Source of the DNA: Fictibacillus terranigra
Lineage (GTDB): Bacteria > Bacillota > Bacilli > Bacillales > Fictibacillaceae
Direction of reading: 5' to 3'
Length of the DNA stretch: 64,000 nt
Assembly: GCF_030412265.1 (NCBI RefSeq)
Contig: NZ_JAUHLN010000004.1
Span: 186,001-250,000, forward strand
Shown here: in pieces, positions 21,339 through 29,740 of the stretch
Numbering within the stretch: the stretch's first letter is position 1
Layout: each line of letters starts with the position of its first letter
Program-made: the position numbers and the translations under genes
Notes under the pieces: model-generated
Told to the model about the DNA's origin: nothing
Seen by the model: only the letters and a program-made list of their open reading frames with translations
Database searches by the model: none

Positions 21339-22277
21339 ATGCTGACACGTGAAATGGATTCTTTTCCTTATCCGTTTAAGGGCGAGCAATACCGTTATTC
21401 CAATAACTCCGTCCCCATGACCCGGCCATCCAGTATAGAAATTACTCCACGTTATACAGAAGAGATTCAACTTAAGCGTAATTTGCTCAACAATTATCCC
21501 GAACGCTGTTTTCAAACGATGCCGCATACGTTAAAGGGACAGTGGGAGGCTGTAGATTTGGTCACTGAACATCTGGCAGCTTTTTTTCCCAGTCAGTTTG
21601 CGCTCCAGAAAAACGGCGATCACTGGACGTTCGAAAACAAACTGCTAGGGGAGGCATTTACTTTTACCTATGGTGATGAAACGACGATTCCGTATCAGCC
21701 TTTAGACTTTATTGGCAGGCATGTGCAGGAAGATCTCATTTTTATGCTGGAGAGGGATGGGGATCTTCATTTGGATGCAGGACAGCTCTGTTTTCCGGCC
21801 AACTGGTCACTCGCATTCAACCTTGGGATGAGATTTAAAGAAATTCACCATCCAATTCCGGGATTTAAAGAGGAGGAGCTGGATGAGCGCATCCTGCGTT
21901 TTTTAATGAGGATGGAAGCAGGGAGTCCATGGGAGCGGCTGAATTGGTCGTTAATGGCGGGAAACAAGCTCGATACATCATTGGAGACGTTTCATGAATG
22001 GGGAAAAGAACGAAAGAACGTAACAGAAGTAAATGCTGGAGACCTCGTTCATCTTCGGGTGGAAGTTCAAAAGCTGTTTCGTCTGCCGCAAAGCAACGGC
22101 ATTCTGTTCACGATTCATACTCATCTGTTGGCGATCAAGGACTTGGCGGCCAATCGAGACTGGCTGCAGCAGTTTTATCATATTTTAAAAGAGCTTCCCG
22201 AACATATTGCGGAATACAAAGGGATCGCTCTCTATCAAAAACCGCTTCTATCCTACCTGAAAGGGAAACTGACATGA
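21339..22277 (+). CDS. Haem-dependent oxidative N-demethylase (DUF3445), alpha-type subunit
   Basis: A 312-residue protein of the DUF3445/HODM alpha-subunit family. Recognisable blocks are FPYPFKGEQYRYSN at the start, PLDFIGRHVQEDLIFML, CFPANWSLAFNLGMRFKEIHHPIPGF, ERLNWSLMAGNKL and LRVEVQKLFRLPQSNGILFTIHT. In studied members a PAS-like domain binds haem b and oxidatively removes a methyl group from dimethylamine or a similar amine, taking electrons from a partner reductase. That partner is here two genes on. It overlaps the next gene by four bases (ATGA). GGAGG precedes ATG 21339. Confidence 0.85.
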   Translation: MLTREMDSFPYPFKGEQYRYSNNSVPMTRPSSIEITPRYTEEIQLKRNLLNNYPERCFQTMPHTLKGQWEAVDLVTEHLAAFFPSQFALQKNGDHWTFENKLLGEAFTFTYGDETTIPYQPLDFIGRHVQEDLIFMLERDGDLHLDAGQLCFPANWSLAFNLGMRFKEIHHPIPGFKEEELDERILRFLMRMEAGSPWERLNWSLMAGNKLDTSLETFHEWGKERKNVTEVNAGDLVHLRVEVQKLFRLPQSNGILFTIHTHLLAIKDLAANRDWLQQFYHILKELPEHIAEYKGIALYQKPLLSYLKGKLT

Positions 22278-22714
22278 CGTTTGTACCGGGAAAGCGAAAA
22301 TACCTCATTTGCGGTGATCCATCTGGTATAAATTTGGTGCAGCCCATCATCCAAAACATTATGGAACAACATTTATCCTTTGAAGTGATGGAGATTAAAG
22401 ATGAGGAAAAGGTACGAAACTGGCTGGACCATCAGAAAATGGGGTGTTATCTGTATGTTTCAGCAGCGTGGCCAGAGATTGAGCGACTTAAAAACATCAC
22501 CGAAGACATAGGTTTCTCAGAAGAAGAGGTGCAATTCCTCGGCCGCGGGGAACAAATGATCAAGGTGTTCTGCTGCCGCTGCCATGGACTGACTGAGCTG
22601 GCTAGATCGGATGCGTCAGAAATCACATGCTCCCAATGCGGCTTACTGCTTTCGGTAAGTGACCACTATTCATCATTGCGGAAGGCGTACTTAGGCTATG
22701 TGGCCAAACTTTAA
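22274..22714 (+). CDS. DmmA-like subunit of dimethylamine monooxygenase family
   Basis: A 146-residue protein starting at the ATG that overlaps the preceding stop (ATGA). The N-terminal half is alpha/beta (KRKYLICGDPSG, CYLYVSAAWPEIERLK). The C-terminal part has a zinc- or iron-binding ribbon, CCRCHG near 99-103 and CSQCGLLLSVSDHYS near 119-133. The family is found with DUF3445 and a PDR/VanB reductase and is thought to serve electron delivery or assembly. The upstream-extended open frame is not used: the overlapping ATG fits the coupling seen in this operon. Confidence 0.75.
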   Translation: MTFVPGKRKYLICGDPSGINLVQPIIQNIMEQHLSFEVMEIKDEEKVRNWLDHQKMGCYLYVSAAWPEIERLKNITEDIGFSEEEVQFLGRGEQMIKVFCCRCHGLTELARSDASEITCSQCGLLLSVSDHYSSLRKAYLGYVAKL

Positions 22715-22730
22715 TAGGAGTTGAACGGAA

Positions 22731-23696
22731 ATGTTTTTGGCGGAGAGGGTGCCTGTCACGGTAAATACTATACATAACGAAACGGCACGTGTGAAACGTT
22801 TTGAGCTTGCTTCGCTTGACGGCCAGCCGCTGCCACCCTATAGCGGAGGTTCACATATCGCTGTTTTTATGAAAACAGAGAAAGGGCAGGTTCATCGCCA
22901 CTACTCTTTAACCGGATATACAAATAAAAAAGGACATTATGAGATTGCTGTCGCACTAAACCAAGATTCAAAAGGTGGTTCCGCTTATATGCACCATAAA
23001 GTAAAAGAAGGGGATACACTGCACATCAGTTACCCGAAAAATCATTTTCCTTTGAGCTTTAAAGCGAAGCGGCATGTGTTCTATGCGGCGGGAATCGGAA
23101 TCACGCCTTTTATAAGGATGATGGAGGAATTAAGAGAAAGGGATGCTTCCTTTGAACTGCATTATGCTGCCAAGACAAAGGAATCCTGTGCGTTTTATTC
23201 TTCCCTGAAAACAACTTATCCCGAACAGTGCTGCTTCTATTTTTCCCAAGAAGACGAGGGAGAGAGGATGAATAAAGTTTCTCTTGCTCAACATCCGATC
23301 GGAACCCATGTGTACTTTTGCGGACCGGGTTCTTTTATTACTGAATTCACTGATGCAGCAGCAAAATTAGGCTATCCATCTTCCAATATTCATGTTGAAC
23401 GGTTTACCTCGCCAAAACCAAGCGTTCGGAACGCTTTTCAAGTAAGACTGAAAAATGGATCCACCGTGCAGGTAGCTGAAGATCAGACCTTGCTCGAAGC
23501 TCTTCTTGACCATGGAATCGATGCTCCGTATTCTTGCCGTGCAGGACGCTGCGGTACGTGTGAGATCAAAGTTAAAAAGGGGGAGGTTGACCATTGCGAT
23601 TCTTTTCTGACAGAAGAGGAGAAGGAACGACAAGAAACGGTCATAGCGTGTGTATCGAGGGCAAAATCAGCTGAATTAGTATTAGAAATAGAGTAA
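22731..23696 (+). CDS. PDR/VanB-type ferredoxin reductase
   Basis: A 321-residue reductase with three domains. The flavin domain (about 1-100) has HRHYSLTGYTNK; the NAD(P)H domain (about 105-225) has FYAAGIGITPFIRMM and VYFCGPGSF. The C-terminal plant-type [2Fe-2S] domain (about 235-321) has Cys in YSCRAGRCGTC near 268, 273 and 276 and a fourth near 306. It passes electrons from NAD(P)H to an oxygenase, here the DUF3445 haem enzyme two genes upstream. It lies 16 bases after the DmmA-like gene. A degenerate GGTGCCTGTCAC palindrome lies within codons 6-10. Confidence 0.9.
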   Translation: MFLAERVPVTVNTIHNETARVKRFELASLDGQPLPPYSGGSHIAVFMKTEKGQVHRHYSLTGYTNKKGHYEIAVALNQDSKGGSAYMHHKVKEGDTLHISYPKNHFPLSFKAKRHVFYAAGIGITPFIRMMEELRERDASFELHYAAKTKESCAFYSSLKTTYPEQCCFYFSQEDEGERMNKVSLAQHPIGTHVYFCGPGSFITEFTDAAAKLGYPSSNIHVERFTSPKPSVRNAFQVRLKNGSTVQVAEDQTLLEALLDHGIDAPYSCRAGRCGTCEIKVKKGEVDHCDSFLTEEEKERQETVIACVSRAKSAELVLEIE

Positions 23697-24078: not shown

Positions 24079-24092
24079 TGTAAGCGCTTTAA
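24079..24092 (+). promoter_or_regulatory. Candidate CcpA (cre) site before the PTS operon
   Basis: TGTAAGCGCTTTAA matches the catabolite-response element at about 12 of 14 positions against TGTAAGCGCTTACA. It lies 30 bases before the regulator start, as expected for carbon catabolite repression of a sugar operon. Confidence 0.55.
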
Positions 24093-24121: not shown

Positions 24122-26179
24122 GTGCAACTGGAAGAACGGCCGGCCTTATTGTTGAATCAGCTTTCTGCACTTAACAGACCAACCATGTCGCAGCTTATGG
24201 ATCAGACCCATTTGACCAAGCGGCAGATTACGTACGATCTTGAAAAAATTAATGAATGGCTGAAGGATCGGAGTCTTCCTCCTATCTCTTATAAACGAAG
24301 AACATGGATTGAGGTTCCGGAACGAGTCATTGATTATGCGGGCAAGCAGTTAACGGGAGAGTCTTTTATTTTTACGGAAGAAGAAAGGCTTTATTCCATC
24401 TTTTTATTCCTGTTTATCAGAAAAGAGTATATCTCGTCTGCTCACTTTATCTCTCTCCTGAAGGTCAGTAAAAACACAGTAATTGCGGATGTGAAAAAGG
24501 CGAATGACAGGATCAGCCCGTTCCTTGTGAAAATTCATTACACAAGGGAACGGGGATACCACTTAAAGGGAACCGAGCTTGATAAAAGGGTCCTGTTAAT
24601 GAATCATTTAACCAGACTTTTTCAGAAGCCGTCGGGTAAAAAAATAATTGAATATCTCATAACAAAAGCAGGTTATGAGCTTAGAGTGGATGAAATAACC
24701 ACTCTTCTACAGTCGCTTGAACGGGATTTCAATCTTCAATTTGTGGAAGAACGCCTGCACCAGTTCGCTCATTTTCTACAATTCTATTATATCCGGCTTC
24801 TGGAAAAAAAGGTGGTCCGTCTTCATCCTGATGAGATTGAGATTCTTAAACAAGACAGGTTAATAGAAACAGCCAAACAAATCGTTCACCTATTAGAGCT
24901 GGATACCGTCGAATCAGAATTGGCCTACCTTGTCATTCAGCTATTAGGACTTTCATTGGGAAATGCATCTGCTGTACAGGATGATTATGATCTGCTGCTG
25001 CAAATATGTGAAAGGCTGGTCACAGACTTTGAATCCAAGGCCTGCATCTCATTTGAAGAAAAGAATACAGTCGTTGAAACACTCTATCAGCATCTGAAAC
25101 CCGCTTACTATCGGATGAAGTACCGAATACCCATCCACAATCCTTTGCTTATTCAGATCAGAGAAGAACACAGGGAACTATATACGATTGTAAAGGAACT
25201 GCTTGAGCCCGTTGAAATCCTTCTCAATATCTCTATACCCGAGGAAGAAGCAGGGTTTATTACCATCCATTTTGGAGCTTTGCTCGAAAAACCGAAGCAC
25301 ATTGCAGCTAGAAAAAAGAGAGCATGGGTGGTTTGTCCGAGTGGAATAAGTTCCTCACTGATGGTAAAGCACCAGCTCGAGTCCCTGTTTTCAGAGATCA
25401 CGATTGACCGTACGATGTCATTGCAGGAATTTAAAAAGGATCAGAGCTCCAATTTTGATCTTATTTTCTCGACTGTACAGCTTCCGACAAAAAAACGCTA
25501 TTTCCTTGTCAAACCGATCATGACGCCCGTTGAAAAAAGTACGCTTATCAATGATGTTTATCAATTTTTATTTGGGATCCAATATGAGCCGGTTTCAACA
25601 AAAGACATCCTTACTATTGTTGAAGGTTTTGGGGAGATCCATGATAAAGCAGGTTTGACCGAGGCTTTAAATCAATTTATGTTTCAAAAAAGGACCAACG
25701 TAAACAGGAGGAACAGTCCAGTGCTAAGTGACTTAATTACAAATGATACCATCCAATTTGCGGAACAGCTCCCAGACTGGGAGGAAGCGATAAAGGAGGC
25801 AGCCCAGCCGCTTCTTATTAAAGGGGTAATAGAGTCTTCCTACATTGATGCCATGATTGAAAATGTACACACCATGGGCCCTTATGTCATTTTGGGCCAA
25901 GAAATTGCTATTCCGCATGCACGCCCGGAAATGGGAGTGAATCAGGTAGGTATGAGTTTTCTTAAACTTGAGCGGCCAGTCTATTTTTTGAACGATGAGA
26001 AGCATCCTGTGTCCTTATTGTTCTGTATAGCTGCGATCGATAATACGACCCACTTGCAGGCTCTGTCACAGCTTACAAAACTTTTAAGCAATAAAGACAA
26101 TGTAAAAAGATTAAAAGCTATGAAAAACATAGATGAAATCATGGAGCTCATTCATGAATATTCCAAAGCGGTGCAGTAA
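24122..26179 (+). CDS. BglG-family PTS regulator with EIIB and EIIA domains
   Basis: A 685-residue MtlR/LicR-type activator. N-terminal HTH domains (about 1-160, MSQLMDQTHLTKRQITYDL and LLKVSKNTVIADVKKA) are followed by two PRD modules (about 180-395). An EIIB-like domain has Cys in VVCPSGISSSLMVKHQL near 405. A C-terminal EIIA domain of the fructose/mannitol/ascorbate type has its His in AIPHARPE near 599. Phosphorylation by HPr and the cognate EII sets its activity. GTG 24122 follows AGGAGGG by 8 bases. The operon encodes IIB and IIC but no separate IIA, so this IIA domain may also serve transport. Confidence 0.88.
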   Translation: MQLEERPALLLNQLSALNRPTMSQLMDQTHLTKRQITYDLEKINEWLKDRSLPPISYKRRTWIEVPERVIDYAGKQLTGESFIFTEEERLYSIFLFLFIRKEYISSAHFISLLKVSKNTVIADVKKANDRISPFLVKIHYTRERGYHLKGTELDKRVLLMNHLTRLFQKPSGKKIIEYLITKAGYELRVDEITTLLQSLERDFNLQFVEERLHQFAHFLQFYYIRLLEKKVVRLHPDEIEILKQDRLIETAKQIVHLLELDTVESELAYLVIQLLGLSLGNASAVQDDYDLLLQICERLVTDFESKACISFEEKNTVVETLYQHLKPAYYRMKYRIPIHNPLLIQIREEHRELYTIVKELLEPVEILLNISIPEEEAGFITIHFGALLEKPKHIAARKKRAWVVCPSGISSSLMVKHQLESLFSEITIDRTMSLQEFKKDQSSNFDLIFSTVQLPTKKRYFLVKPIMTPVEKSTLINDVYQFLFGIQYEPVSTKDILTIVEGFGEIHDKAGLTEALNQFMFQKRTNVNRRNSPVLSDLITNDTIQFAEQLPDWEEAIKEAAQPLLIKGVIESSYIDAMIENVHTMGPYVILGQEIAIPHARPEMGVNQVGMSFLKLERPVYFLNDEKHPVSLLFCIAAIDNTTHLQALSQLTKLLSNKDNVKRLKAMKNIDEIMELIHEYSKAVQ

Positions 26180-26197
26180 AAAAAGGAGGGACTGGAA

Positions 26198-26479
26198 ATG
26201 AAAATTTTAGCTATATGCGGTTCAGGTTTAGGAAGCAGTTTTATTCTTGAAATGAATGTTCAGGAAATTATTAACGAGCTGGGGGTGTCAGGTGTGGAGG
26301 TAAGCCATTCTGATTTAAGCTCTGCGACCCCTGACATGGCAGATCTATTTATCGCTGCCAGGGATATTGCGGAAAGTGCCACCCACTTGGGAGAGGTCGT
26401 TGTCATTGACAGCATTATTGATATGGATGGAATTCGAGAGAAACTAAGAGAAGAGTTTACCAAAAAAGGAATGCTCTAA
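26198..26479 (+). CDS. PTS subunit IIB, ascorbate (UlaB)-like
   Basis: A 93-residue IIB of the L-ascorbate/galactitol superfamily. The phosphorylated Cys is residue 7 in ILAICGSGLGSSFILEMNV, followed by SDLSSATPDMADLFIAARD and a C-terminal helix. It takes phosphate from an EIIA and gives it to the sugar carried by the IIC encoded next. It lies 18 bases after the regulator stop, with AAAGGAGG upstream, and 23 bases before IIC. The true sugar is uncertain because the family also covers non-ascorbate substrates. Confidence 0.88.
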   Translation: MKILAICGSGLGSSFILEMNVQEIINELGVSGVEVSHSDLSSATPDMADLFIAARDIAESATHLGEVVVIDSIIDMDGIREKLREEFTKKGML

Positions 26480-26502
26480 AGAGCCTGAAGGGGGAACTGG
26501 TC

Positions 26503-27873
26503 ATGGGTGAAAGATTTCTTAAATTGATGATGGATATTCTAAGTCAGCCTGCTGTTCTTGTTGCTTTGATTTCTTTGATTGGTCTGCTTCTTCAGAAAAA
26601 ACCAGCGAGTGAGGTTGTCAAAGGAACAACAAAGTCCTTTTTAGGATTTCTTGTTATTGCTGCAGGCGCAAATATCCTCGTTGGGGCACTCGATCCATTC
26701 GGAAAAATGTTTCAGGAAGCGTTTCATGTAAATGGTGTCGTGCCCAATAATGAAGCCATTGTAGCAATGGCATTGACAAAGTACGGATCGGCTACGGCGT
26801 TAATCATGTTTTTTGGAATGATTGCCAACATTCTCGTTGCCAGATTTACCAAATTAAAATATATCTTTCTCACAGGACATCACACATTATACATGGCTTG
26901 TATGATTGCCATTATATTGGTGGTTTCAGGGTTAAAAGGGATAGGGCTCATTGTTGTGGGTTCCATTGCCCTTGGTTTAACGATGGCAGTGTTCCCGGCG
27001 ATGACCCAGCCTTTTATGCGAAAAATAGTAGGAAACGATAATGTAGGATTCGGACACTTCTCTTCTCTTGGCTATATCCTGTCAGGATTGGTAGGAAAAG
27101 CAGTTGGAAAGGGATCTCGCTCTACAGAGAAAATCAATTTCCCTAAAGGCCTTGCTTTTCTTCGTGACAGTTCAGTCACTATTGCACTTACGATGACGGT
27201 TCTTTACTTGGTTATTGCCTTGTTTGCGGGCCCTTCCTATGTTGAGAAGGAATTAAGCAATGGAACACATTACCTTGTCTTCGCTGTCATTCAGGCGGTC
27301 ACATTTGCTGCCGGGGTGTTTGTGATCCTTTCCGGTGTTCGACTCGTATTGGCTGAAATTGTACCTGCTTTTAAAGGAATATCTACTAAACTCGTGCCAA
27401 ATTCCAAACCTGCACTTGATTGTCCAATTGTATTTCCTTATGCACCAAACGCGGTCTTAATAGGTTTTTTCTGCAGCTTTTTGGGCGGAATCGTAGGCAT
27501 GGCAATCTTGGGCTGGGCTGGTGCCGTAATCATATTGCCAGGAGTTGTCCCTCATTTCTTTACAGGGGCTACGGCAGGTGTATTCGGTAATGCTACCGGA
27601 GGTATACGCGGTGCGACCATTGGATCGTTTGCTAACGGTTTGCTTATTACATTTCTTCCTGTTTTCCTGCTTCCGGTACTTGGGGATCTTGGATTTGCGA
27701 ATACCACCTTCTCAGACAGCGACTTTGGGGGCGCTGGAATTATTTTAGGAAATGTGGCTGATTCGTTCGGGGCGACAGGTGTTACGGTCTTTGTGGCAGC
27801 CATGTTAGTGATTGCCGTTCTCTTCGGGTTACGAAAAAAACCGCAGCAAGAAAAGGAAGAGATTTCGGCTTAA
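26503..27873 (+). CDS. PTS subunit IIC, ascorbate (UlaA)-like
   Basis: A 456-residue membrane permease with about 11 helices and UlaA-family motifs: KGTTKSFLGFLVIAAGANIL near 40, LTGHHTLYMACMIAI near 125, VGFGHFSSLGYILSG near 182 and FPYAPNAVLIGF near 310. It moves the sugar while IIB phosphorylates it. The operon lacks the ula decarboxylase and epimerase genes that follow ulaABC in ascorbate users and instead continues into transketolase, which argues for a ketose or another substrate directly usable by transketolase. Confidence 0.88.
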   Translation: MGERFLKLMMDILSQPAVLVALISLIGLLLQKKPASEVVKGTTKSFLGFLVIAAGANILVGALDPFGKMFQEAFHVNGVVPNNEAIVAMALTKYGSATALIMFFGMIANILVARFTKLKYIFLTGHHTLYMACMIAIILVVSGLKGIGLIVVGSIALGLTMAVFPAMTQPFMRKIVGNDNVGFGHFSSLGYILSGLVGKAVGKGSRSTEKINFPKGLAFLRDSSVTIALTMTVLYLVIALFAGPSYVEKELSNGTHYLVFAVIQAVTFAAGVFVILSGVRLVLAEIVPAFKGISTKLVPNSKPALDCPIVFPYAPNAVLIGFFCSFLGGIVGMAILGWAGAVIILPGVVPHFFTGATAGVFGNATGGIRGATIGSFANGLLITFLPVFLLPVLGDLGFANTTFSDSDFGGAGIILGNVADSFGATGVTVFVAAMLVIAVLFGLRKKPQQEKEEISA

Positions 27874-27901
27874 AGCGAAGTGCTAATATGGGAGGTTTTC
27901 G

Positions 27902-28753
27902 ATGAGTCAAACGATTACTGAAATGGAACTCTTAAGAGATAAGATCCGTTTAAAAACGTTAAAGGAACTCCACCATCTGGGCTTTGGTCATTATGGGGGC
28001 AGCTTATCGATTGTTGAAACGCTGGCTGTGCTATATGGAGGCGTCATGAAGATTGACCGTGCCAACCCCAAGTGGGAGGAACGGGATTACTTTATCCTGT
28101 CAAAAGGCCACGGAGGCCCGGCATATTATGCGGCCTTAGCAATGAAGGGATTTTTCGCGGAAGAGGTGCTGTACACTCTAAATCAGAATGGGACATCGCT
28201 GCCCTCGCACCCTGATCGAAACCTGACACCGGGAGTCGATATGACAACAGGTTCACTTGGCCAGGGTATTTCTGTAGCGGTAGGGGTGGCTCTTTCTCAT
28301 AAACTGTCAGGCAAGTCGAATAGCACCTATTGCATTGTGGGTGACGGTGAATTAAACGAGGGGCAGTGCTGGGAGGCGTTTCAGTTTGCGGCGCATCACA
28401 AATTAAACCATCTTTCTGTTTTGGTAGATGATAATAAAAAGCAGCTCGACGGATTAACAAAGGATATCATCGATCCCATCGATTTTGCTGAAAAGTTTAA
28501 TGCCTTTGGATTCTATACCTTAAAAGTAGACGGAAGCTCCATTCCTGAAATTTACGATGCGATTAAGCTTGGAAAGTCGCAAATTGAAAAACCGGTTGCC
28601 ATTATATTAGACACGATAAAAGGCCAGGGCGTTCCATACCTTGAAACAAAAGCAGACAATCACCACATCCGTCCTAATGCTAAAGATGAAGCGGCCATAC
28701 TCGAAGCGATAGCAGAACTTGAGCGCAGTATGGAAAGGAGGATAACAGGATGA
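27902..28753 (+). CDS. Transketolase, N-terminal (TPP pyrophosphate-binding) subunit
   Basis: A 283-residue N-terminal half of a split transketolase. It has HHLGFGHYGGSLSIVETLAV at the active-site entrance, DYFILSKGHGGPAYYAAL, TTGSLGQGISVAVGVAL and the TPP-metal motif GDGELNEGQCWEAFQFAAHH near 147. Together with the next gene it makes one full enzyme that moves a two-carbon ketol unit between sugar phosphates. GGAGG precedes ATG 27902. It overlaps the partner gene by four bases. Split transketolases in sugar operons include the apulose-4-phosphate enzyme and others, so substrate should not be assumed to be xylulose-5-phosphate. Confidence 0.92.
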   Translation: MSQTITEMELLRDKIRLKTLKELHHLGFGHYGGSLSIVETLAVLYGGVMKIDRANPKWEERDYFILSKGHGGPAYYAALAMKGFFAEEVLYTLNQNGTSLPSHPDRNLTPGVDMTTGSLGQGISVAVGVALSHKLSGKSNSTYCIVGDGELNEGQCWEAFQFAAHHKLNHLSVLVDDNKKQLDGLTKDIIDPIDFAEKFNAFGFYTLKVDGSSIPEIYDAIKLGKSQIEKPVAIILDTIKGQGVPYLETKADNHHIRPNAKDEAAILEAIAELERSMERRITG

Positions 28754-29712
28754 TTGAATCAGCAGCTGCATTTTATGAAGTGGAAGAAGTTGAAATGAGG
28801 CAGGCATATGCCAGCACTCTGCTTGAGCTGGCAAAACAAAATCCAAACATCATTGCACTGGAAGCTGACCTCATGAGCTCGATCTCTACCAATAAAATTC
28901 AGGGGCAGATACCGGGGCAGCTGATCAACTGCGGCATCATGGAAGCCAACATGATGGGAGTAGCTGCCGGGCTCGCACTGACCGGAAAAATTCCTTTTCT
29001 CCATACATTTGCCCAGTTTGCAACCCGACGTGCCTTTGATCAGTTGTTTGTCTCAGGGGGATATGCACGGTTAAACCTGAAAATTTTGGGCTCTGATTCA
29101 GGGGTAACGGCGGAACACAATGGTGGAACACATATGGCATTTGAAGATATGGGACTCGTTCGTCTGATCCCGAATGCCGTTGTATACGAAGCAAGCGACT
29201 CAACCATGTTGTCCTATTTACTCCGTAAAATTTCCAGTGAATACGGTGTGCATTATATACGGACGATGAGGAAAGCAGCCGTGAAAATTTACAATTCCGG
29301 CGAGACTTTTGAAGAAGGAAAAGGAAAGATTCTCCGTGAAGGAGGAGATGTAACGATCATCGCCAGTGGGATCATGGTAGCCGAGGCTTTAAAGGCCGCA
29401 GATATCCTCCGCAATCATGGAGTACGGGCAACGGTGGCAGATATGTATTCCATAAAGCCGATCGATGAAGAGTTAATTATTAAGTTGGCAAGAAAAACGG
29501 GGGCAGTCGTAACCGCGGAAAACCACAATGTCATTGGAGGGCTGGGAAGTGCAGTGGCTGAAGTATTAAGTGAGCATTGTCCTACACCTTTGAGAAGGAT
29601 CGGCGTCAGGGAACAGTTTGGCCAGGTAGGTAAAACTGAATATTTGAAGGAAGTTTACAACCTGGCAGCCAAGAATATTGCCGAGGCTGTAAGAGAGTTA
29701 AAGCCGTATTAA
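28750..29712 (+). CDS. Transketolase, C-terminal (pyrimidine-binding) subunit
   Basis: A 320-residue C-terminal half. It has ALEADLMSS-type residues near 36, INCGIMEANMMGVAAGLAL with the catalytic Glu near 64, FLHTFAQFATRRAFDQLFVS, TAEHNGGTHMAFEDMGLVR and the C-terminal transketolase domain with TAENHNVIGGLGSAV near 256. The start overlaps the N-subunit stop (ATGA), so the two are made in equal amounts. It ends the PTS operon; a terminator follows at once. No other sugar enzyme is present, so the imported sugar phosphate may be the direct ketol donor or acceptor. Confidence 0.92.
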   Translation: MIESAAAFYEVEEVEMRQAYASTLLELAKQNPNIIALEADLMSSISTNKIQGQIPGQLINCGIMEANMMGVAAGLALTGKIPFLHTFAQFATRRAFDQLFVSGGYARLNLKILGSDSGVTAEHNGGTHMAFEDMGLVRLIPNAVVYEASDSTMLSYLLRKISSEYGVHYIRTMRKAAVKIYNSGETFEEGKGKILREGGDVTIIASGIMVAEALKAADILRNHGVRATVADMYSIKPIDEELIIKLARKTGAVVTAENHNVIGGLGSAVAEVLSEHCPTPLRRIGVREQFGQVGKTEYLKEVYNLAAKNIAEAVRELKPY

Positions 29713-29740
29713 AAGCAAACCCATAGGGTTTGCTTTTTTT
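29711..29740 (+). terminator. Terminator of the PTS-transketolase operon
   Basis: Perfect 11-bp stem AAAGCAAACCC/GGGTTTGCTTT with a 3-base loop and a long T run. Confidence 0.9.

Follow-up and report, generated by a model that had tools for sequence, protein, structure and literature searches.

A phosphotransferase system operon with a split transketolase in Fictibacillus terranigra, a Bacilli form of the pneumococcal ula2 type

The operon and its gene products

The stretch of DNA considered here (the window) comprises 64,000 nucleotides of Fictibacillus terranigra (assembly GCF_030412265.1, contig NZ_JAUHLN010000004.1, positions 186,001 to 250,000), from a genome of 4.97 Mb whose relatives are Bacilli. 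Between positions 24122 and 29712 it carries a five-gene operon for an ascorbate-type phosphotransferase system (PTS) and a transketolase divided over two polypeptides; the operon represents, in Bacilli, the type that is called ula2 in Streptococcus pneumoniae. The operon is real and intact, with five open reading frames (ORFs) on the forward (+) strand in the order regulator, IIB, IIC, TktN and TktC, and zero internal stops. The genes, coordinates and domains had been put forward in an original prediction made from the letters of the DNA, and the ORF check and Pfam bore them out.

The first gene (24122-26179, +) starts with GTG and encodes a UlaR2-type regulator of 685 amino acids, in which the Pfam families PRD, PTS_IIB and PTS_EIIA_2 (8.5e-39) were matched. 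An N-terminal helix-turn-helix (HTH) part is followed by the PRD (residues 298-386), an EIIB-like domain (residues 401-461) that retains Cys405, and an EIIA domain (residues 538-679). The latter, encoded at 25733-26158 (+) and matched by PF00359, bears His599 (codon 25916-25918) within the motif IPHARPE and is the proposed phosphoryl donor for the IIB protein. IIB itself (26198-26479, +; 93 amino acids; Pfam PTS_IIB) has its Cys7 (codon 26216-26218) in the motif CGSGLG, and this cysteine is conserved in all 91 IIB proteins from operons of this type. An EIIA gene of its own, free-standing, was not found within the operon, just as the original prediction had stated.

The 456-residue IIC (26503-27873, +) is the membrane component of a PTS of the ascorbate/galactitol (GAT) family, scoring 504.8 bits against Pfam EIIC-GAT (cut-off 24.2; E 2.4e-151) and 611.8 bits against NCBIfam PRK09410.1-1 (cut-off 380), and thus lies over the curated cut-offs of the L-ascorbate PTS family. 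Its score against PRK12996, 654.7 bits, is below the cut-off of 890; IIB and IIC together fall under several ascorbate equivalog cut-offs, a single IIC model being exceeded. The operon is completed by TktN (27902-28753, +; 283 amino acids; Transketolase_N), the thiamine diphosphate (ThDP)-binding subunit of the split transketolase, and by TktC (28750-29712, +; 320 amino acids; Transket_pyr and Transketolase_C), the pyrimidine-binding and C-terminal subunit, the two ORFs overlapping by 4 bp.

Distribution and gene content of related operons

Genome contigs were scanned with a profile made from the TktN alignment and the best 80 of at least 583 loci were kept, a selection that favours near relatives; IIC, TktN and TktC lie on one strand in all 80 of these named loci. 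The operon type ranges over Bacillota, Enterobacterales and Pasteurellaceae, and reaches one metagenome-assembled genome of the Fusobacteriales. Closer to the window, IIC matches of 94-100% identity are present in five of the seven genus genomes, its own included, and a class sample of 398 genomes contained an IIC match in 113 (E <= 1e-90) and a TktN match in 19 (E <= 1e-80), eight of the latter below 1e-150. The identical five-gene operon was found in all eight, a check that covers these strongest matches; the other 11 lie at 1e-80 to 1e-87. Judged by such recurrence across genus and class genomes, the occurrence of the operon is not due to chance.

The expectation that the PTS and the two-part transketolase would come with no other sugar enzyme also held up, and a conserved extra enzyme of this kind was rejected because none recurs across 93 operons. 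A same-strand ORF follows within 120 bp in 17 of the 93, these being of mixed kinds and some of them probably spurious; two encode sugar-phosphate aldolases (FSA-like in L087, DeoC in L150). In the Vagococcus salmoninarum locus (L150:4131-9446), this type of transketolase occurs where IIB and IIC are surrounded by DeoC and a pair of GmhA-like isomerases, an arrangement that is possibly a heptulose route. The gene order EIIA-IIB-IIC-TktN-TktC is also found on an IMG/VR contig (L085:1936-5920), whose EIIA forms a pair with the Escherichia albertii one, so this member of a viral collection probably represents host DNA.

The EIIA domain of the regulator

Matches to EIIA_2 number 11 in the window genome, in which HPr and enzyme I are also matched. 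Four are free-standing genes, all within other PTS operons (two fructose-type, one mannitol-type and one second ascorbate-type), and on these free genes a dedicated orphan EIIA in this genome was rejected. The second ascorbate-type operon, on contig C15 (L065:4472-11203), consists of a regulator, a free EIIA, IIB and IIC, together with genes for a phosphotriesterase/phospho-furanose-lactonase-like protein, a creatininase-like protein and a SIS sugar isomerase.

The placement of EIIA among the best 80 loci shows an alternation, the domain being fused only in 32, free only in 40, of both kinds in two and not seen in six. The fused-only loci are all Bacillota (the regulator of L102 being split in two pieces), and the free-only loci comprise 39 Enterobacterales and the Pasteurellaceae locus L145. 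Both kinds occur in L137 (Fusobacteriales) and L147 (Erysipelotrichaceae); of the remaining six, L093 and L161 are truncated by contig ends, and L129, L144, L148 and L158 belong to Pasteurellaceae. Beside the transketolase, all 46 fused and all 46 free EIIA domains retain the active histidine, a count in which three sub-threshold protein fragments of the window genome that have no such histidine were excluded as EIIA domains.

In 40 of 40 loci that have a fused EIIA and no free one, this domain is closer to its counterpart in the window than the HTH-PRD part of the same regulator is (median identity 54% versus 34%). The subset of 20 loci with an IIC below 72% identity gave 50% for EIIA, 29% for HTH-PRD and 56% for IIB. 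A like contrast, 47% versus 29%, was seen in 13 operons that have a fused EIIA only and no TktN-TktC, so it is not peculiar to the transketolase operons. Where both kinds are present, the free EIIA is closer than the local fused one to the EIIA of the window's regulator in seven of eight cases, namely L053, L058, L059, L060, L076, L137 and L147; this count left out L100 and L124 from nine such rows, because their second EIIA-like match is not a free subunit in the operon map, and added the C15 operon.

A locus from the same order, L049 (9350-11520), contains a lone 151-residue EIIA gene beside IIB and IIC, the three products being 74%, 81% and 86% identical to their counterparts in the window. 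Remnants of the other regulator domains were not found at this EIIA-IIB-IIC locus, and its EIIA nests among the fused EIIAs in a quick tree for which the free EIIAs were hand-thinned to 13 of 46 and long branches were flagged. This gene reads as a regulator reduced to its transport part. Alternation, retained histidine, conservation contrast and L049 are four comparative lines that concur in support of the suggestion, already made in the original prediction, that the regulator's EIIA serves IIB.

A distinct subfamily of split transketolases

The nearest solved chains of TktN and TktC are 6yak, the N component of a split transketolase (1.4e-71), and 6yaj (3.9e-82), respectively. Residues His30, His70, His103, Asp148-Gly-Glu and His254 of TktN and Glu65 of TktC are invariant in the alignments, and we take them to be ThDP-binding and catalytic, Glu65 presumably being the catalytic one. 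In an alignment with human transketolase, whose numbering was counted along the alignment, TktC Asp116 (codon 29095-29097, +) lies opposite His416 and Asn124 (codon 29119-29121, +) opposite Asp424; these columns presumably serve phosphate and acceptor-hydroxyl recognition in ordinary transketolases. TktC Arg17, Ser44 and Arg171 align with what we take to be phosphate ligands of the human enzyme, Ser44 being replaced by Ala in 24 and by Cys in three of 93 clade sequences.

All 93 clade sequences have both Asp116 and Asn124, as against His and Asp in six of six ordinary transketolases (the canonical enzyme of the window genome, L003, and those of the fetched loci L053, L062, L063, L075 and L077). 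Twelve rows stand outside the clade count, comprising these six, AptB and a further five ThDP enzymes that the window genome encodes, with L007 not included. One of the five, L006, which is DXS-like by motif, has Asp in the Asp116 column and a residue other than Asn in the Asn124 column. The TktC sequences with the motif NGGTH form one side of a branch with an SH-aLRT (approximate likelihood-ratio test) value of 99, in a quick tree for which the enterobacterial rows were hand-thinned to a chosen ten and long branches were flagged. On the alignments and this tree, the transketolase is best described as a distinct subfamily marked by Asp116 and Asn124, and the change of letters hints that the aldehyde released or accepted may not be the usual one.

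A TktC with the NGGTH signature is also encoded next to rfbH on a Desulfobaculum bizertense plasmid (L168:6123-7921), in a stretch where no PTS gene is annotated; the marker letters also occur outside a PTS operon.

Flanking signals and neighbouring genes

An intrinsic terminator closes the operon at 29711-29740 (+), with a hairpin at 29711-29737 of a 12-bp stem and a 3-nt loop, followed by a T run. The hairpin folds with a free energy of -15.5 kcal/mol (z -6.4), equalled by none of 200 shuffles, although the terminator was not picked up by a simple pattern scan. At the other end, a palindrome resembling a catabolite-responsive element (cre) at 24079-24092 (+), 30 bp 5' of the regulator start, has one mismatch to the search pattern and is a candidate site of catabolite repression. 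The whole window contains 10 matches to the pattern against 2.6 expected. A matching TGWAAGCGCTTTAM lies 5' of the regulator in four of four genus relatives examined, of which two rows stop short of the palindrome in the alignment. Promoter-like sites were uninformative, with 12 observed against 12.0 in shuffles.

Upstream of the operon, the genes at 21339-23696 resemble a cluster for an amine N-demethylase or monooxygenase, separate from the sugar operon; one product is an oxidoreductase carrying Fer2 and a DmmA-like domain (47.7 bits, cut-off 33).

Proposed pathway and its alternatives

In the reading that we favour, and hold as a whole to be moderately probable, the ascorbate-family PTS would take up and phosphorylate a small ketose, most likely a ketopentose and possibly a ketotetrose. 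Phosphate would pass from phosphoenolpyruvate through enzyme I and HPr to His599 of the regulator EIIA, thence to Cys7 of IIB and finally to the sugar at IIC, which would make the regulator both the sensor and the transport EIIA. The operon's own specialised TktN-TktC would then channel the phosphorylated sugar into the non-oxidative branch of the pentose phosphate pathway. This proposal builds on the gene content, the intact motifs, the one operon-borne EIIA, the conservation patterns and the distinct transketolase subfamily, and from these we infer the phosphotransfer from regulator to IIB, the kind of sugar and the direct use of its phosphate by the transketolase. Among the substrates, a ketopentose is judged the most likely and an ascorbate breakdown sugar the next. 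Relatives of IIC adjoin an ordinary transketolase and transaldolase (L062), a transketolase and DeoC (L063), an FSA-type aldolase and transketolase (L077) or, in L080 and L083, a transaldolase by itself; such neighbours are in keeping with sugars feeding into the pentose phosphate pathway.

Several observations weigh against this reading. In the pneumococcus, pentose tests gave unspecific acidification only and no substrate was shown (PMC3302838), and the reported inducer of ula2 is ascorbate, with none of the other tested sugars inducing it (PMC4324149). L049 keeps its PTS in a genome without a TktN match at E 1e-80. An EIIA-like stretch is absent throughout the fetched DNA of the Pasteurellaceae loci L129, L144, L148 and L158, and IIB was likewise not found in that of L129; these loci, which would need an external EIIA if functional, suggest that EIIA can be supplied from elsewhere and speak against each operon bringing its own. 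The C15 operon is the opposite of the seven loci named above, its free EIIA being 38% identical (over 124 amino acids) and its fused EIIA 43% identical to the window's domain, and this free EIIA could serve the window's IIB.

The C15 subunit and the four Pasteurellaceae loci also lend weight to the view that the regulator's EIIA is purely regulatory, as in other PRD regulators, with IIB receiving its phosphate from a different EIIA, for example the C15 one; cross-feeding of an EIIA-less PTS by EIIA-Glc is indeed cited in PMC3302838. It has to contend with the conservation contrast at 40 of 40 loci, the alternation of fused and free EIIA, and the EIIA-IIB-IIC remnant in L049, and we consider it unlikely. 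Import of ascorbate or of a breakdown product (for example L-xylulose or L-erythrulose), with the altered transketolase handling an L-configured phosphate, appears comparably doubtful. IIB and IIC belong to the ascorbate PTS family, Asp116 and Asn124 presumably lie at positions of phosphate and acceptor-hydroxyl recognition, and the pneumococcal induction by ascorbate agrees with it; against this, the five genes include no ascorbate-6-phosphate lactonase, decarboxylase or epimerase, so the operon alone could not process ascorbate itself, and the breakdown sugar is a speculative proposal of our own. Ascorbate catabolism proper was rejected for the absence of the ula enzymes from the five genes.

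It should also be considered that the split enzyme could be a pentose-phosphate transketolase of the ordinary kind, produced on demand and acting on no special substrate, as the catalytic Glu65 and the ThDP-side motifs are retained. The third transketolase, TktC, of a 2018 Salmonella paper is presumably this split enzyme; the title of that paper speaks for ordinary activity, which bears on the present case only if the enzymes are the same. The explanation seems improbable in view of the marker letters found in 93 of 93 clade members and in none of the six ordinary transketolases, the monophyly of the clade and the ordinary transketolase (L003) that the genome already has. By far the least probable is an apulose-type pathway, a candidate in the original prediction, in which TktN-TktC would be the apulose-4-phosphate transketolase AptAB. 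Both are two-subunit transketolases of sugar operons, but the identities, 39% to AptA and 32% to AptB, do not exceed what would be expected from the general split transketolase of Carboxydothermus hydrogenoformans, and AptB carries Asn and Leu in the marker columns and falls outside the clade; apulose is thus disfavoured on sequence. A more far-reaching reading, which we offer tentatively and consider less likely than not, is a two-step sugar pathway: the PTS would generate the phosphate of a ketose foreign to central metabolism (such as an L-configured ascorbate breakdown sugar), the dedicated Asp116/Asn124 transketolase would cleave it directly and the regulator EIIA would be a working part of the transporter. 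Were the EIIA such a part, transport flux would be read directly off a transcription factor.

Comparison with known systems

In S. pneumoniae, an ascorbate-type PTS without a dedicated EIIA, SP2129-30, adjoins a regulator that bears both EIIB and EIIA domains, as well as the transketolase halves SP2128 and SP2127, and it was proposed in 2012 that the regulator's EIIA energises this PTS, with xylulose or ribulose as cargo (PMC3302838). The operon was named ula2 (SP2127-2131, spd_1957-1961) in 2015, when it was described as one transcript by reverse transcription PCR (RT-PCR), activated by UlaR2 with ascorbate (array changes of 2.3- to 3.2-fold) and listed also for S. agalactiae, S. equi, S. mitis, S. 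pyogenes, S. suis and S. uberis (PMC4324149). Deletion strains of ulaR2 showed reduced growth in vitreous humour in vitro and, in the eye, in one of two strains (PMC6780617, 2019). A potABCD deletion strain showed SP_2127-2130 up more than 200-fold (Table 2), or 20- to 28-fold for two genes by quantitative RT-PCR (PMC8540371, 2021); this rise on loss of a polyamine transporter far exceeds the ascorbate effect and is not explained by a known sugar. The accessible part of a Listeria paper (PMC11176438) yielded nothing on this operon, and no proven substrate for the operon type was found in the literature searched.

The window operon shares with ula2 the five genes, the PRD, EIIB-like and EIIA domains of the regulator and the lack of a separate EIIA. 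Identities to the S. pneumoniae locus L159 are 62% for IIC, 49% for IIB, 59% for TktN and 48% for TktC, and the regulator is 33% identical over 609 amino acids, with 49% in its EIIA domain; all five proteins are thus orthologous at 33-62% over nearly full lengths, with both TktC proteins in the NGGTH clade. They differ in that the window has the cre-like site, none having been found in the pneumococcus (PMC4324149), and that the 16-bp pneumococcal UlaR2 site was not found 5' of the window operon. No match with up to three mismatches lies near 24122 and one occurs elsewhere, against 0.99 expected; as the site was defined in streptococci, its absence here is a weak test.

The operon beside yfcC-pta-ackA in Salmonella and its relatives has IIB, IIC, TktN and TktC in the same order (63%, IIC; 54%, IIB; 60%, TktN; and 53%, TktC, in locus L157), but there a LacI-type regulator together with a free EIIA replaces the fused regulator; the annotation of Salmonella L171 accordingly lists a LacI-family regulator, IIA, IIB, IIC and two transketolase genes adjoining yfcC-pta-ackA. 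With the ascorbate PTS UlaABC the window shares the PTS family, and from the ula operon it differs in lacking the lactonase, decarboxylase and epimerase. AptA and AptB of E. coli SE15, which were traced by the locus tags that PMC13001218 gives, likewise form a two-subunit transketolase in a sugar operon, one that has an ABC transporter and an FGGY kinase. The Carboxydothermus hydrogenoformans enzyme (6yaj, 6yak) is the nearest solved relative of both subunits, whereas its C chain has His and Asp, as in ordinary transketolases, at the marker positions.

The original prediction knew of no described pathway of this form. The pneumococcal layout of SP2127-2131 overturns that claim to novelty (PMC3302838, PMC4324149), and the sequence comparison disfavours the apulose candidate. 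The pairing of PTS and transketolase is supported, and so, on comparative grounds, is the proposed dual role of the regulator. Both the layout and the main ideas had been published for S. pneumoniae and are therefore not new; what the present comparison adds is the comparative tests of the dual role and the signature of the transketolase subfamily. The idea of 2012 can now be tested by replacing one histidine, and the fixed Asp/Asn pair that sets TktC apart from the ordinary transketolases provides specific grounds for seeking an unusual substrate.

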